Positions 55,307 through 60,115 of a stretch of DNA of 64,000 bases are shown here, piece by piece (the stretch's first letter is position 1; each line of letters opens with the position of its first letter). Both the position numbers and the translations under genes were made by a program. The stretch lies in NCBI GenBank assembly GCA_002401685.1, contig NVTU01000001.1, positions 34,672 through 98,671 on the forward strand, read 5' to 3'. The notes under the pieces were generated by a model. The model saw only the letters and a program-made list of their open reading frames with translations. It made no database searches and was not told the DNA's origin. This stretch comes from Kordiimonadales bacterium (GTDB lineage: Bacteria > Pseudomonadota > Alphaproteobacteria > Sphingomonadales > Kordiimonadaceae).

Positions 55307-55573
55307 CGGGCTATTTTCCTGCTTAATAATTTATTTGGCTCTCCTAACAGCAATTGCCGTGCCACAAAAACTATCATTACTTTTCAGTTATTTACCTGAA
55401 ATTCAAGTGCGCGCAGCCTCGCCGCACGTCCGGTTTTGAACAGATACTGTGCGAAACTGGACAGCGGATTTAAGGCGCCTAGGGAGCTTGCCGGGGTCAC
55501 CTTCCCCGGAATTTATGCGGAAGACCATGAGATTGAAAAGGGAACGGCACGTCACTCTGGGCCCGGATTGTTC

Positions 55574-55733
55574 GGTCTTGGCGAGGAGCGGGAACCAACC
55601 CTAGTTGTCGGAATGTCTGTTAACTGCCGAATTGTAGACAGTCAAAAAGAGAGAGGTGTCTCTCTAATTGTGAGGTTCCACACTCCGTGCGTCACTATGT
55701 TGAAAATTGCGTCACTAGTAGTGAATGCCTAAA
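55574..55733. repeat. 160-bp direct repeat, copy 1 (right end of oldest cassette relic, 'E0')
   Basis: Ungapped hand alignment to 59809-59968; ends GCGTCACTAGTAGTGAATGCCTAAA. Confidence 0.75.
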
Positions 55734-55794
55734 ATAGGTGTGGGTTTTCAGGTTAAGTGATTCAAAATAGCGCTAAAACGGCACATTTTTCAAA

Positions 55795-55863
55795 GATAGT
55801 GATTCACTTGTTTAAAGTTAGTCATTTAAAATCGCCAAATTTCACAGTTGGTGAGAAATTCCC
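55795..55863. repeat. Subterminal inverted repeat, left copy
   Basis: About 53/69 ungapped match to the reverse complement of 57674-57742. Confidence 0.65.
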
Positions 55864-55872
55864 AGAAATTAG

Positions 55873-56043
55873 GTCCACGGCATAAACCCGCATGCGTACT
55901 TGACATGGGTCTTTGAAACTATCGCAGATCATCCGATCAATCGCATCGACGAACTGCTGCCATCGAACTTTAGAAAAGCCCTGCTCAAGGAACTACTTAA
56001 GGGCATTTGGACGGGAGCATACGTAAGTTATGCGTATTATTAA
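55873..56043 (+). pseudogene. IS66-family transposase (TnpC) C-terminal relic
   Basis: VHGINPHAYLTWVFETIADHPINRIDELLPSNF, the hallmark IS66 C-terminus, without the rest of the gene. Confidence 0.75.
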
Positions 56044-56094
56044 ATTTGATCATGGTTTAAGTAACGAAATGAATATAGTTACAAAAGTTAGGGC

Positions 56095-57474
56095 TTGAGG
56101 AAAATGGAACGAAGTTTAGAGATTTTCAATCGGTTGGTCAGGGAGCTATTGGCCGATGAAGCTCAAAATCCGGTGGCGGAATATATACCTTCACGCCACT
56201 TATACCAGCGTCTTGATCTCAAGTTACAAAAAGATGGCATCAGTGCTTTAGAGCTTGAAAAATCTTTAAAAGACCTTGTTTTTACGACGCCTCGCACGGC
56301 AACCAATGCGTTTTTTAACCAGCTTTTTGGTGGTCGCCAAGACAAAGCAATTCTCGGAGATCTTTTATCGGTTGTGCTCAATAACAGCATGTACACCTAC
56401 AAGGCTGCTGGACCGCAGATTGGCGTAGAGAAAGTCGTATTGCGGGAAGTGTGCGATATGATTGGCTGGGGCAAAAACTCAGACGGAACATTGGCGCCTG
56501 GTGGCTCTATGACAAATTTCATGGGGATGCTTATGGCGCGTGATGCCTATAATGAAAAAACAAAGCATGAGGGCGTTCAGCAAAAAATGACGGTCTATAC
56601 ATCTATAGAAGGTCATTATAGCACGTCAAAAAATGCCGCCTTTACAGGTATTGGAAGGGACCATGTAAGAAAAATTGCAACAGACGCTAAAGGACGTATG
56701 GATAATGCAGTTTTGCGTAAAACGATACAAGAAGACATTGCAAATGGCCTCCATCCTATTCTAATCAATTGTACTGCAGGGACAACTGTATTGGGTGCTT
56801 TTGATAATCTAATAGAAGCAAAAGAAATCGCGAAAGAATATAATATTTGGCTGCATGTTGACGGTGCCTATTGCGGGTCTGTTCTATTTAGTGCGAAGCA
56901 CAAACACTTAATAGAAGGCGTTGAAAACGTAGATTCCTTTACGCTGAATGCACACAAGATGCTGGGTACACCACTTGGTTGTTCATTGATTGTCGTAAAA
57001 GACAAAACACATCTGCATAATTCTTTCTCTAACGATGCGTCGTATTTGTACCAAACCGATCACGATGAATTTAATCTTGGTAAAACATCGATTCAGTGCG
57101 GCCGCAGGAATGATGCGCTGAAGCTTTGGGTGCTTTGGAAAAGTGTCGGTACAAATGGTTTAGAAAATATCGTAGATAAGCAGTTTGAATTAGCTAACAC
57201 TGCACGGAAGTATGTAAGAGGTAATTCTGATTATACAGATTACAGTATAGACGATGCAGTTTCTGTTTGTTTTAATTATAAAGGTATACCTGCCGAGGAA
57301 ATTTGTACGTTACTCTACGAACATTCTCAGCTCTTGGTAGGTTATGGTTCGTTCAAAGAAGATACATTCATCCGTTTGGTCACTATCAATGCTACAAATG
57401 AAAATGAAGATATTCTAAAATTCTTCAAAACTATGGAAACATTTGTTGCAGAGCACGAAGCATTATTCACGTAA
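56095..57474 (+). CDS. PLP-dependent group II amino acid decarboxylase (Glu/Asp/diaminobutyrate decarboxylase-like)
   Basis: APGGSMTNFMGMLMARD; WLHVDGAYCGSVLFS; SFTLNAHKMLGTPLGCSLI (PLP Lys). Start TTG 56095 or ATG 56104. Confidence 0.85.
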   Translation: MRKMERSLEIFNRLVRELLADEAQNPVAEYIPSRHLYQRLDLKLQKDGISALELEKSLKDLVFTTPRTATNAFFNQLFGGRQDKAILGDLLSVVLNNSMYTYKAAGPQIGVEKVVLREVCDMIGWGKNSDGTLAPGGSMTNFMGMLMARDAYNEKTKHEGVQQKMTVYTSIEGHYSTSKNAAFTGIGRDHVRKIATDAKGRMDNAVLRKTIQEDIANGLHPILINCTAGTTVLGAFDNLIEAKEIAKEYNIWLHVDGAYCGSVLFSAKHKHLIEGVENVDSFTLNAHKMLGTPLGCSLIVVKDKTHLHNSFSNDASYLYQTDHDEFNLGKTSIQCGRRNDALKLWVLWKSVGTNGLENIVDKQFELANTARKYVRGNSDYTDYSIDDAVSVCFNYKGIPAEEICTLLYEHSQLLVGYGSFKEDTFIRLVTINATNENEDILKFFKTMETFVAEHEALFT

Positions 57475-57673
57475 ACGGATGAGGTCGACTTTAGGGAGGC
57501 CAATAATGCAATGGTACCGCTTAAGAAGAGTGTCCGCTTAGGGTCATATCCTGTCATTCCAACAGGAAATGAGTTAGGCCTGCTTTCCGAAGTGATAGCG
57601 GCCGTTTTTCGACAAGGACAATAGATGAAACATCAACGCCTTAGCTTGTTGGAAGCGCTTGAGTGAATGTGCA

Positions 57674-57742
57674 GGGAATTTCTCGCTAACTGTAAAGCTT
57701 GGTGACTTTAAATCACTATATGTGAAATTGTGAATCACTATA
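57674..57742. repeat. Subterminal inverted repeat, right copy, containing AATCACTATATGTGAAA twice
   Basis: Inverted match to 55795-55863; 17-mers at 57711-57727 and 57733-57749. Confidence 0.65.
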
Positions 57743-57955
57743 TGTGAAAAGCATGGCTCTCCCTAAATCCTGAAAGACAAAATTCACTAACTGCGACATA
57801 CGGATTCTGGCGCTAAGCTGCCACTAGGCACATTCTCGGAATTGATGGCTTGATGTAGGGGCTAAGGCTAACTCGCGCCAGTCTAAAAGACTGCCGTCTT
57901 GATGGAGTACGTCACTAATTAGGAAAATGCGTCACTAATAGTGAAAACTTACAAA

Positions 57956-57960
57956 AAAGG
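57956..57960. repeat. 5-bp target-site duplication AAAGG, left copy
   Basis: Directly precedes TGTAGG; identical to 60032-60036. Confidence 0.55.
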
Positions 57961-58238
57961 TGTAGGTTTTCAAGAGTATTGATCCAAATACTGCCAAAAA
58001 CACCCCGTTTGATCAGCGTTATTGATTCAGAATTTCACAGTTAGTGATGCAAAATGTGGGATTTTCACATTTAGTGAAAAAATCTGAGCCATCAATGTCT
58101 GAAACTGACTCCGAGTATACGTACAGAGAGGGCTGCAATTGACCCATTGCAGTCGGTTAAGTTTACCCGCATTGCTTTGACTACCGGCCAGTAGTTGCCG
58201 TGATGGAAAGGCAATGCGCTCAAAAGGACCGGCCGAAA

Positions 58239-58272
58239 ACGCGAATCAATTGTATGGACGAACTGCTACCCT
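58239..58272 (+). pseudogene. Highly degraded IS66 TnpC C-terminal relic
   Basis: ATCAATTGTATGGACGAACTGCTACC aligns to ATCAATCGCATCGACGAACTGCTGCC of the E1 relic; reads RINCMDELLP*. Confidence 0.45.
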
Positions 58273-58353
58273 AAATTTACCTTTCAGATTGAAACTGTGC
58301 AGCATAAATTACTATTTTTTGCTTGTGATACCGACTAAATGGTCCGTATACTA

Positions 58354-58467
58354 CTGATAATGGAATTCCCGTCTGATAATGGAATTCCCGTCTGATAATG
58401 GAATTCCCGTCTGATAATGGAATTCCCGTCTGATAATGGAATTCCCGTCTGATAATGGAATTCCCGT
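58354..58467 (+). repeat. Six perfect tandem copies of 19-bp CTGATAATGGAATTCCCGT
   Basis: Read directly; the final copy contains the ORF-track start codon at 58455. Confidence 0.95.
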
Positions 58468-58472
58468 CATTT

Positions 58473-59783
58473 ATGTCTCAAATGCTTTACAGTAAGGCCT
58501 TGCAATTTTATCAAAGTAAGAACTTGGTGGCCGCGAAGAATAGCTGCTGGAAAATAAAAAGCGCATCGGATTGTTTTGGCAAGGCCGCTTTTCTGCTGGG
58601 CTGTATCGCGAAGGATGAAAAGCGCTGGGATCTCGCAGCAAGCCAATTCAAAAAGTCGCTATCCGTCAACCAAAGTGACTTCCTTAGCTATGTGAATTTG
58701 AGCGAAGTCCATCAAAACCAAAGCCAATTTGACCTGGCACTGGAAGCTTCAGAAACGTCCCTACCCCTTGCAGATGCCCCGGACGCCCACGCACATTGCC
58801 TGCGCCAATTGGCAAAAATTCAATTGGAGCTAGCACGGCATGAAGAAGCGCTGTGTACCTTAAAAAAGGCGATTGCCCTCAAACCCAATTCTGCTGCTTC
58901 CCATTATATTTTTGGTTATGTCCTGCTTCAAACGCATAAGGCCAGTGCCGCGATCACGTCACTTCGGAAAGCAATAGAGCTCGGACTGGCCTCGGGGACC
59001 GTTTTTCGGGATCTCGGACGCGCCTACATTCTGGAAAACATGCAAACAGAGGCCATTGCAGCGCTGGAAAAATCGATCGAATTGGACGGGCCCGATGACA
59101 GTGCCGTGCATATGATCAATGCGCTTCGCGGTCAACACACGGAAGTAGCACCTGACATCTATATCGAGAGGTTATTTGATGATCTCGCGGGCAATTTTGA
59201 AAAACAGCTGATCACTGATTTAGAATATGATATTCCGACCAAAATAGTGACGCTGCTTCAAGAGGAATCATACCTACAGGGCTCTAAGTCTCATATACTC
59301 GACCTTGGATGTGGTACCGGTTTAGTTGGCCAAGCCATGGCACCATACAGCGCAAGTATTGTTGGGGTCGATTTGTCTCAGAAAATGCTGAATATGGCGC
59401 GCGATAAAGGCACCTATTCCAAGTTATCCAAGAACAATATTCTCGATGAATTGTGTACAATTGATATGACAGCTTTTGATTACATCATTGCTGCAGACGT
59501 GCTCATCTATATGGGGGCTTTGGTGTCGTTGTTCGAAACCTTGAGCCAGACAAATCCGATCAAAAAAAGCTCAACCTTTATTTTCTCGGTGGAACTATCG
59601 AGCGCCAAAGAGTGCCAATTGCTTGCTTCAGGGCGATACGCCCACAGTGAACAATATATTGATAAGTTATGTGAAAAATATGGGTTCAGTATTGAAGTTC
59701 AAAACCACACAACAATAAGAACCGAGCGCGGCAAAGCCATTGACGGTGCTATTTATTTTATCCAACCGAAGCGGCCTTCTTAA
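58473..59783 (+). CDS. TPR-repeat SAM-dependent methyltransferase
   Basis: TPR units (DFLSYVNLSEVHQNQSQFDLALEASETSLPL, SAASHYIFGYVLLQTHKASAAITSLRKAIEL) and HILDLGCGTGLVGQAMAPYSASIVGVDLSQKML. Start 58455 or 58473. Confidence 0.85.
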   Translation: MSQMLYSKALQFYQSKNLVAAKNSCWKIKSASDCFGKAAFLLGCIAKDEKRWDLAASQFKKSLSVNQSDFLSYVNLSEVHQNQSQFDLALEASETSLPLADAPDAHAHCLRQLAKIQLELARHEEALCTLKKAIALKPNSAASHYIFGYVLLQTHKASAAITSLRKAIELGLASGTVFRDLGRAYILENMQTEAIAALEKSIELDGPDDSAVHMINALRGQHTEVAPDIYIERLFDDLAGNFEKQLITDLEYDIPTKIVTLLQEESYLQGSKSHILDLGCGTGLVGQAMAPYSASIVGVDLSQKMLNMARDKGTYSKLSKNNILDELCTIDMTAFDYIIAADVLIYMGALVSLFETLSQTNPIKKSSTFIFSVELSSAKECQLLASGRYAHSEQYIDKLCEKYGFSIEVQNHTTIRTERGKAIDGAIYFIQPKRPS

Positions 59784-59808
59784 CCGGCGCCCCAATATAA
59801 TAATGTCT

Positions 59809-59968
59809 GGTTTTGGCGAGAAGCGGAAGCCAACCGTAGTTGTCTGGATGTCCGGTCACAGGCAAAATGCAGACAGTCAAAAATAGAGAGGTATCTCGTT
59901 AATTATGAGATTCCACACTCTGCACGTCACTAATGCTCAATTTGCGTCACTAATAGTGAAAACCTACA
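59809..59968. repeat. 160-bp direct repeat, copy 2 (internal right-type end within E2)
   Basis: Ungapped hand alignment to 55574-55733; ends GCGTCACTAATAGTGAAAACCTACA. Confidence 0.75.
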
Positions 59969-60031
59969 CCTGTCACTTTGGGGAGTGCGTCACTAATTAG
60001 AATTTTTCGTCACTAATAGTGAATTCCTACA

Positions 60032-60036
60032 AAAGG
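60032..60036. repeat. 5-bp target-site duplication AAAGG, right copy
   Basis: Directly follows CCTACA; identical to 57956-57960. Confidence 0.55.
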
Positions 60037-60038
60037 CG

Positions 60039-60115
60039 TGGTGGGCCCGGAGGGACTCGAACCCCCGGCCAGACCGTTATGAGCGGTCTGCTCTAACCAA
60101 CTGAGCTACAGGCCC
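60039..60115 (-). tRNA. tRNA with CAT anticodon (Met or Ile2)
   Basis: GGGCCTGTAGCTCAGTTGGTTAGAGCAGACCGCTCATAACGGTCTGGCCGGGGGTTCGAGTCCCTCCGGGCCCACCA folds as a cloverleaf with encoded CCA. Confidence 0.93.

Follow-up and report, generated by a model that had tools for sequence, protein, structure and literature searches.

A decarboxylase gene between Tn7-like ends in a stack of candidate transposase-less cassettes at tRNA-Met of a Kordiimonadales bacterium

Results

Two units, E1 and E2, are arranged head-to-tail beside a tRNA-Met(CAU) gene in the window, the 64,000-nucleotide stretch of Kordiimonadales contig NVTU01000001.1 analyzed here. E1 (55739-57953, 2.2 kb) has asymmetric TGT...ACA ends bearing arrays of ~20-22-bp sites, and its cargo is a single intact PLP decarboxylase gene. 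The open reading frame list and Pfam reveal cargo reading frames only, and no tns or other transposition genes. We consider E1 and E2 to be small tRNA-Met-targeted elements that are non-autonomous, have Tn7-like ends and were presumably moved by TnsABC and TniQ acting in trans and stacked by repeated insertion; we give this reading a probability of roughly 0.6. The features of the region are listed in window coordinates, with the strand where one is assigned.

55569-55733, minus strand: R0, a solo right end; 50-bp terminal part at 55684-55733, its terminal TGT changed to TTT, together with ~115 bp of conserved subterminal sequence
55734-55738: ATAGG, which separates R0 from E1 by exactly 5 bp; the other junctions have AAAGG
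55739-55861, plus strand: left end of E1; four ~22-bp sites are spaced along it, at 55746, 55788, 55810 and 55840
55873-56040, plus strand: C-terminal remnant of an IS66-family transposase (PF13817, E 2.1e-12, 47.5 bits, cut-off 30)
56104-57474, plus strand: group II PLP decarboxylase of the CSAD/GADL1/GAD type, 456 aa (PF00282, E 3.6e-76; GADL1, E 1.4e-74)
57674-57750, minus strand: inverted, degenerate repeat of the subterminal part of the E1 left end (77 nt; 78% complementarity with 55787-55863)
57904-57953, minus strand: E1 right end, TGTAAGTTTTCACTATTAGTGACGCA and a second TTAGTGACG site 20 bp further in
57954-57960: AAAAAGG, spacer separating E1 from E2, of which the final AAAGG (57956-57960) is the left copy of the E2 duplication
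57961-58084, plus strand: E2 left end, with spaced ~22-bp sites at 57968, 58011, 58033 and 58063
58354-58467: six head-to-tail 19-bp repeats, CTGATAATGGAATTCCCGT, within E2 (repeat comparison)
58455-59783, plus strand: E2 cargo, a TPR and methyltransferase protein of 442 aa (Pfam)
59919-59968, minus strand: E2 inner right end, the end recognized in an earlier note made from the sequence alone
59982-60031, minus strand: R3, the outer right end, which likely bounds the 57961-60031 unit on the tRNA side; 7 nt separate it from the CCA of the tRNA
60032-60036: AAAGG, right copy of the 5-bp duplication
60039-60115, minus strand: tRNA-Met(CAU), the presumed attachment site (ARAGORN; RF00005, 69 bits)

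Ends and stacking

The sequence TGTRRGTTTTCA with at most one mismatch has seven matches in the window against 0.98 expected, and the four exact ones coincide with both ends of E1 and both ends of E2. The E1 end sequences quoted in the earlier note were recovered at 55739 and 57953, and the likeness it saw between the ends of the two units is borne out on both sides. The left ends, of which the window holds two full examples, have the terminal TGTnGGTTTTCA in common, along with three or four internal sites that are spaced, ~22 bp long and related to TTTCACAnTTAGTGATGCAAAA. The right ends are compact, with TGTAGGTTTTCACTATTAGTGACGCA and a second TTAGTGACG 20 bp further inward, and show 86% mean column identity across 50 bp. 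The proposal that E1 and E2 are cassettes of the same type carrying different cargo is supported.

The sequence preceding E1 repeats the E1/E2 junction (55687-55861 versus 57907-58084, ~178 bp, 69% identity, E 2.7e-13), and the window therefore contains four right ends rather than two: R0 (55684-55733), E1 (57904-57953), E2 inner (59919-59968) and R3 (59982-60031). The R0 region is 78-80% identical to 59804-59966, and R0 scores 51 bits with model R1, whose training set includes it. R0 probably belonged to an older element in the stack, as its right end. The inner end at 59968, taken earlier for the right end of E2, is an inner right end; the boundary of E2 is very likely the outer end at 60031.

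The ~115-bp subterminal sequence is common to R0, the E2 right end (59804-59966) and the relative G019. In the subterminal part of R0 (55648-55665), a terminator-like hairpin followed by a T-run reads inward from the tRNA side and might stop transcription of tRNA-Met once the element has inserted; the number of terminator-like sites in this region is close to chance (3 found versus 2.1 expected). Within E2, the array of CTGATAATGGAATTCCCGT 19-mers lies just upstream of, and overlaps, the start of the TPR-methyltransferase reading frame.

Target site and duplication

The outermost right end (60031) lies 7 nt past the CCA of tRNA-Met(CAU), and the unit 57961-60031 is flanked on both sides by a perfect 5-bp AAAGG repeat. 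Such a match arises by chance about once in 1000 cases, or once in 500 when either of two right ends could have been chosen. E1 lacks a perfect duplication (ATAGG on the left against AAAAA/AAAGG on the right), and the 5-mers flanking the elements of G001, G002, G021 and G025 show no exact match. Earlier reports describe a 5-bp duplication, a compact right and a spaced left end, and the use of tRNA sites via TnsD/TniQ for Tn7 (PMC11406308, PMC10293859). The units described here display TGT...ACA ends with several ~20-22-bp inverted sites, one end compact and the other spaced, and a fixed orientation at a fixed distance past a conserved gene, which is 7 nt in the window and 6-10 nt in G001, G002, G021 and G025. 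As far as sequence can tell, the end anatomy, the tRNA position and the 5-bp repeat suggest that the ends follow a Tn7-like logic.

IS21, Tn5053/402-like and IS1202-like elements likewise have TGT ends and repeated sites inside them. Derivation of E1 and E2 from another such TGT...ACA class, the tRNA position being incidental, would be in keeping with these end features and with the lack of a tns gene in both units. Against it, related ends of graded similarity recur at this tRNA with the same offset, and two of them come with tnsABC-tniQ; we regard this derivation as very improbable; IS21 in particular was set aside on end anatomy and position.

The decarboxylase cargo

The PF00282 match confirms that the cargo is a group II decarboxylase, as first noticed. 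The PLP lysine motif NAHK is present, and the closest solved structures are the GADL1, cysteine-sulfinate and glutamate decarboxylases. The gene likely starts at the ATG at 56104, with GAGGA just upstream and homologues aligning there; a TTG at 56095 is the alternative start. The homology to these three enzymes supports the suggestion of a metabolic rather than a defensive cargo, while nothing was found in support of the acid-stress role proposed along with it.

The AT-rich composition remarked on in the earlier note holds when GC content and codon usage are compared with 25 window genes: the decarboxylase has a GC content of 0.407 versus 0.523 ± 0.022 and a GC3 of 0.372 versus 0.556 ± 0.031. 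Its codon-usage distance is 0.40 against a mean of 0.24 ± 0.06, with one window gene reaching 0.42. Some of the homologues are also AT-rich (GC 0.417-0.494), so composition alone is insufficient proof of transfer.

Homologues with 74-79% identity are present in five of 29 family relatives, three from the same genus (G009, G011, G024) and two from the same family (G001, G002), and no homologue at that level was found in the other 24 family genomes. They occupy three different neighborhoods, none resembling the surroundings of E1 and E2 in the window. This distribution differs from vertical conservation with the same neighbors, the pattern named at the outset as speaking against a cassette. Comparison with the homologues yields a dN of 0.14-0.18 with saturated dS, which indicates that the gene has been retained under selection; the sequences thus class the decarboxylase as a gene under purifying selection.

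Elements at the same tRNA-Met in relatives

A survey of tRNA-Met 3' flanks in 24 family genomes revealed right-end-like sequence in the genome of the window (G000) and in G001, G002, G012, G019, G021 and G025, with weaker end remnants recognized by eye in G017 and G027. When each ~3-kb locus was scanned with a PWM derived solely from the window's four right ends, the position 6-10 nt past the CCA scored highest in G001, G002, G021 and G025. In G007 the first rank falls at +25, with a weak score of 4.6. Across relatives' loci totaling 871 kb, which overlap in part and are not wholly independent, the top scores (19.4, 17.2 and 15.6) all belong to tRNA-Met-adjacent or stacked ends. Several sister genomes retain the order of M18 peptidase and tRNA-Met, and what lies on the opposite side of the tRNA varies; none of the relatives examined showed an empty site. 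The MacB-type gene to the left of E1 has many paralogues, and among the relatives examined stands beside the tRNA only in G019, with 38% identity.

In G012 and G001, the variable side of the tRNA opens with a Tn7-like element carrying tnsA-tnsB-tnsC-tniQ. The G001 element (L062) spans ~9.9 kb between inverted ends TGTCCATTTTCATAATTAATGAGAA and TGTCCATTTCCATAATTAGCGAGAA; the nearest PDB match of its TnsB is a Tn6677-type TnsB, and its cargo, judged by eye, includes a retron-like reverse transcriptase. The G012 element (L023) has one in-frame TAG stop in tnsB, and no left end was found for it. Both share with E1 and E2 the tRNA, the offset of about 7-9 nt and the end layout, but differ in possessing the transposition genes, in their larger cargo and in the sequence of the end sites. 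Model R1 gave no match at E 5 or better in a multi-locus search, and on L062 alone reached the G001 ends at only E 1.1-2, which is not significant; the link to the tns-bearing element thus depends on where the end lies, how it is laid out and how the PWM ranks it. Neither the model search of relatives' loci nor pattern scans of viral and genome contigs turned up a complete element whose ends match closely, and a plasmid search with the end junction gave no match. The sole genome-contig pattern match (L010) was rejected as a chance occurrence, as it has no site array and adjoins a planctomycete Rhs-like gene.

Elements with both ends and no tns match in the 20 kb around each locus are found in G002, G021 and G025. 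The G002 element (L143) extends 7.5 kb past tRNA-Met, with both Tn7-like ends and the RNA-repair genes rtcR-rtcB-rtcA. G021 (L144) and G025 (L145) have both ends at tRNA-Met around a related 14.2-kb catabolic-looking cluster, with a further end beyond. By eye, the cluster comprises amidohydrolase-like, alpha/beta hydrolase, MFS and TonB-receptor-like genes. In G021, an end also follows a second tRNA-Met-like gene.

The closest E-type end is found in G019 (~71% identity over 180 bp to the E2 right end, E 0.0013), on a 9-kb contig where no tns genes were seen. It follows, after 7 nt, a tRNA-Met 3' fragment (L109, 6535-6608) located 5.4 kb beyond the real tRNA. To judge from its sequence, this lone fragment with its E-type end is a fossil of an earlier insertion or duplication. 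The tRNA-adjacent element of G019 carries cytochrome P460 and Ada genes.

Another kind of occupant is seen in G013 (L025), where serine-recombinase-like genes begin right past the same tRNA-Met, with similar flanks in G009, G011 and G024; two unrelated kinds of element seem to use the site. These genes, together with the array of single-gene units at a tRNA, are what an integron-like or tyrosine/serine-recombinase cassette array would lead one to expect. The units in the window, however, have inverted multi-site ends of opposite types and a 5-bp duplication, and their TGT ends lie outside the tRNA gene without splitting it. An array of this sort was set aside on end anatomy and position, and is the least credible of the explanations considered.

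Transposase genes

TnsB was sought with a single query over 401 genomes of the order and with a five-sequence profile over 30 family genomes. Neither search matched anything in G000, whose assembly is 77% complete, nor in G021, G025, G017 or G027. The profile gave strong matches in G001, G011, G012, G014 and G024 and further ones in G004, G005, G010 and G026, and only weak partial matches in G002, G019 and G020. The TniQ search of G000 was negative, but its positive control also matched nowhere. The PF00665 search of G000 is weak evidence because the TnsB of G012 itself falls below the PF00665 cut-off.

Discussion

E1 lacks a transposase of its own and has ends laid out like those of Tn7-like transposons at the same tRNA in related species, and was therefore probably moved by the machinery of another element. 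A related complete element would have supplied TnsA, TnsB, TnsC and a TniQ recognizing tRNA-Met in trans; this helper may now be absent from the genome or may lie within the unassembled 23%. TnsB would bind the end sites, and the excised cassette would insert 6-10 bp past the tRNA-Met CCA with its right end toward the tRNA, duplicating 5 bp. As the site is regenerated each time, further insertions would build the stack, the R0 element first, E1 next and E2 nearest the tRNA, which would make E2 the youngest.

The main rival to movement in trans is decay: E1 and E2 might once have been complete Tn7-like transposons at tRNA-Met, having lost their tns genes through IS-mediated or internal deletion and kept the cargo that the host uses. 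The IS66 remnant and the inverted left-end fragment inside E1 point to internal rearrangement and suggest the decay of a larger element. The extra neighboring right ends (R0, and the inner and outer ends of E2) and the in-frame stop in tnsB of the G012 element at the same tRNA could be read in the same way. Decay would, however, require two adjacent elements each to have lost all of tnsABC and tniQ, yet retained both ends and exactly one intact cargo gene, and similar tns-free, two-ended elements recur in G002, G021 and G025. We consider decay unlikely on balance. Cassettes moved in trans are favored by two complete pairs of ends that each enclose a single intact gene, and by the tns-free two-ended elements in complete genomes.

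Tn7-like ends, tRNA-targeted Tn7-like elements and metabolic cargo are already known. E1 and E2 resemble the tRNA-sited, TnsD/TniQ-guided Tn7-like transposons (e.g. the type I-B2 and I-D CAST branch) in their asymmetric ends with arrays of ~20-bp sites, the 5-bp duplication of E2, the fixed place past the tRNA, the compact end facing the tRNA and the metabolic cargo (PMC8649781, PMC11406308). They differ in having no TnsA, TnsB, TnsC or TniQ, none of which was found in the 77%-complete genome either, and in their size of only 2.1-2.2 kb with one cargo gene each.

Mobile insertion cassettes (MICs) use the ends of simple IS elements. E1 and E2 are like MICs, such as those of qnrD plasmids, in that a passenger gene lies between transposon ends, the transposase is absent and mobilization in trans is presumed (PMC3913671). 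Unlike MICs, they are bounded by Tn7-like ends, sit at a specific tRNA target and are stacked. A limited and partial literature search found no account of one-gene Tn7-like units stacked at tRNA-Met without a transposase.

An earlier survey of Tn7-like elements defines them by tnsB and includes metabolic cargo (PMC8649781). Transposase-less one-gene stacks would escape surveys seeded with TnsB. We put forward only tentatively, at somewhat short of even odds, that E1 and E2 belong to a family-wide class of miniature transposase-less Tn7-like cassettes, which would carry one or few cargo genes, depend on tRNA-Met-directed machinery and form ordered stacks, a transposon-built counterpart of an integron array unseen by such surveys. 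If Tn7-like machinery does move such cassettes in trans, the pool of Tn7-borne DNA would be larger than TnsB-seeded surveys report (PMC8649781), and single metabolic genes could be delivered to a safe, conserved site. The 3' flank of tRNA-Met would offer a simple marker for finding such islands.
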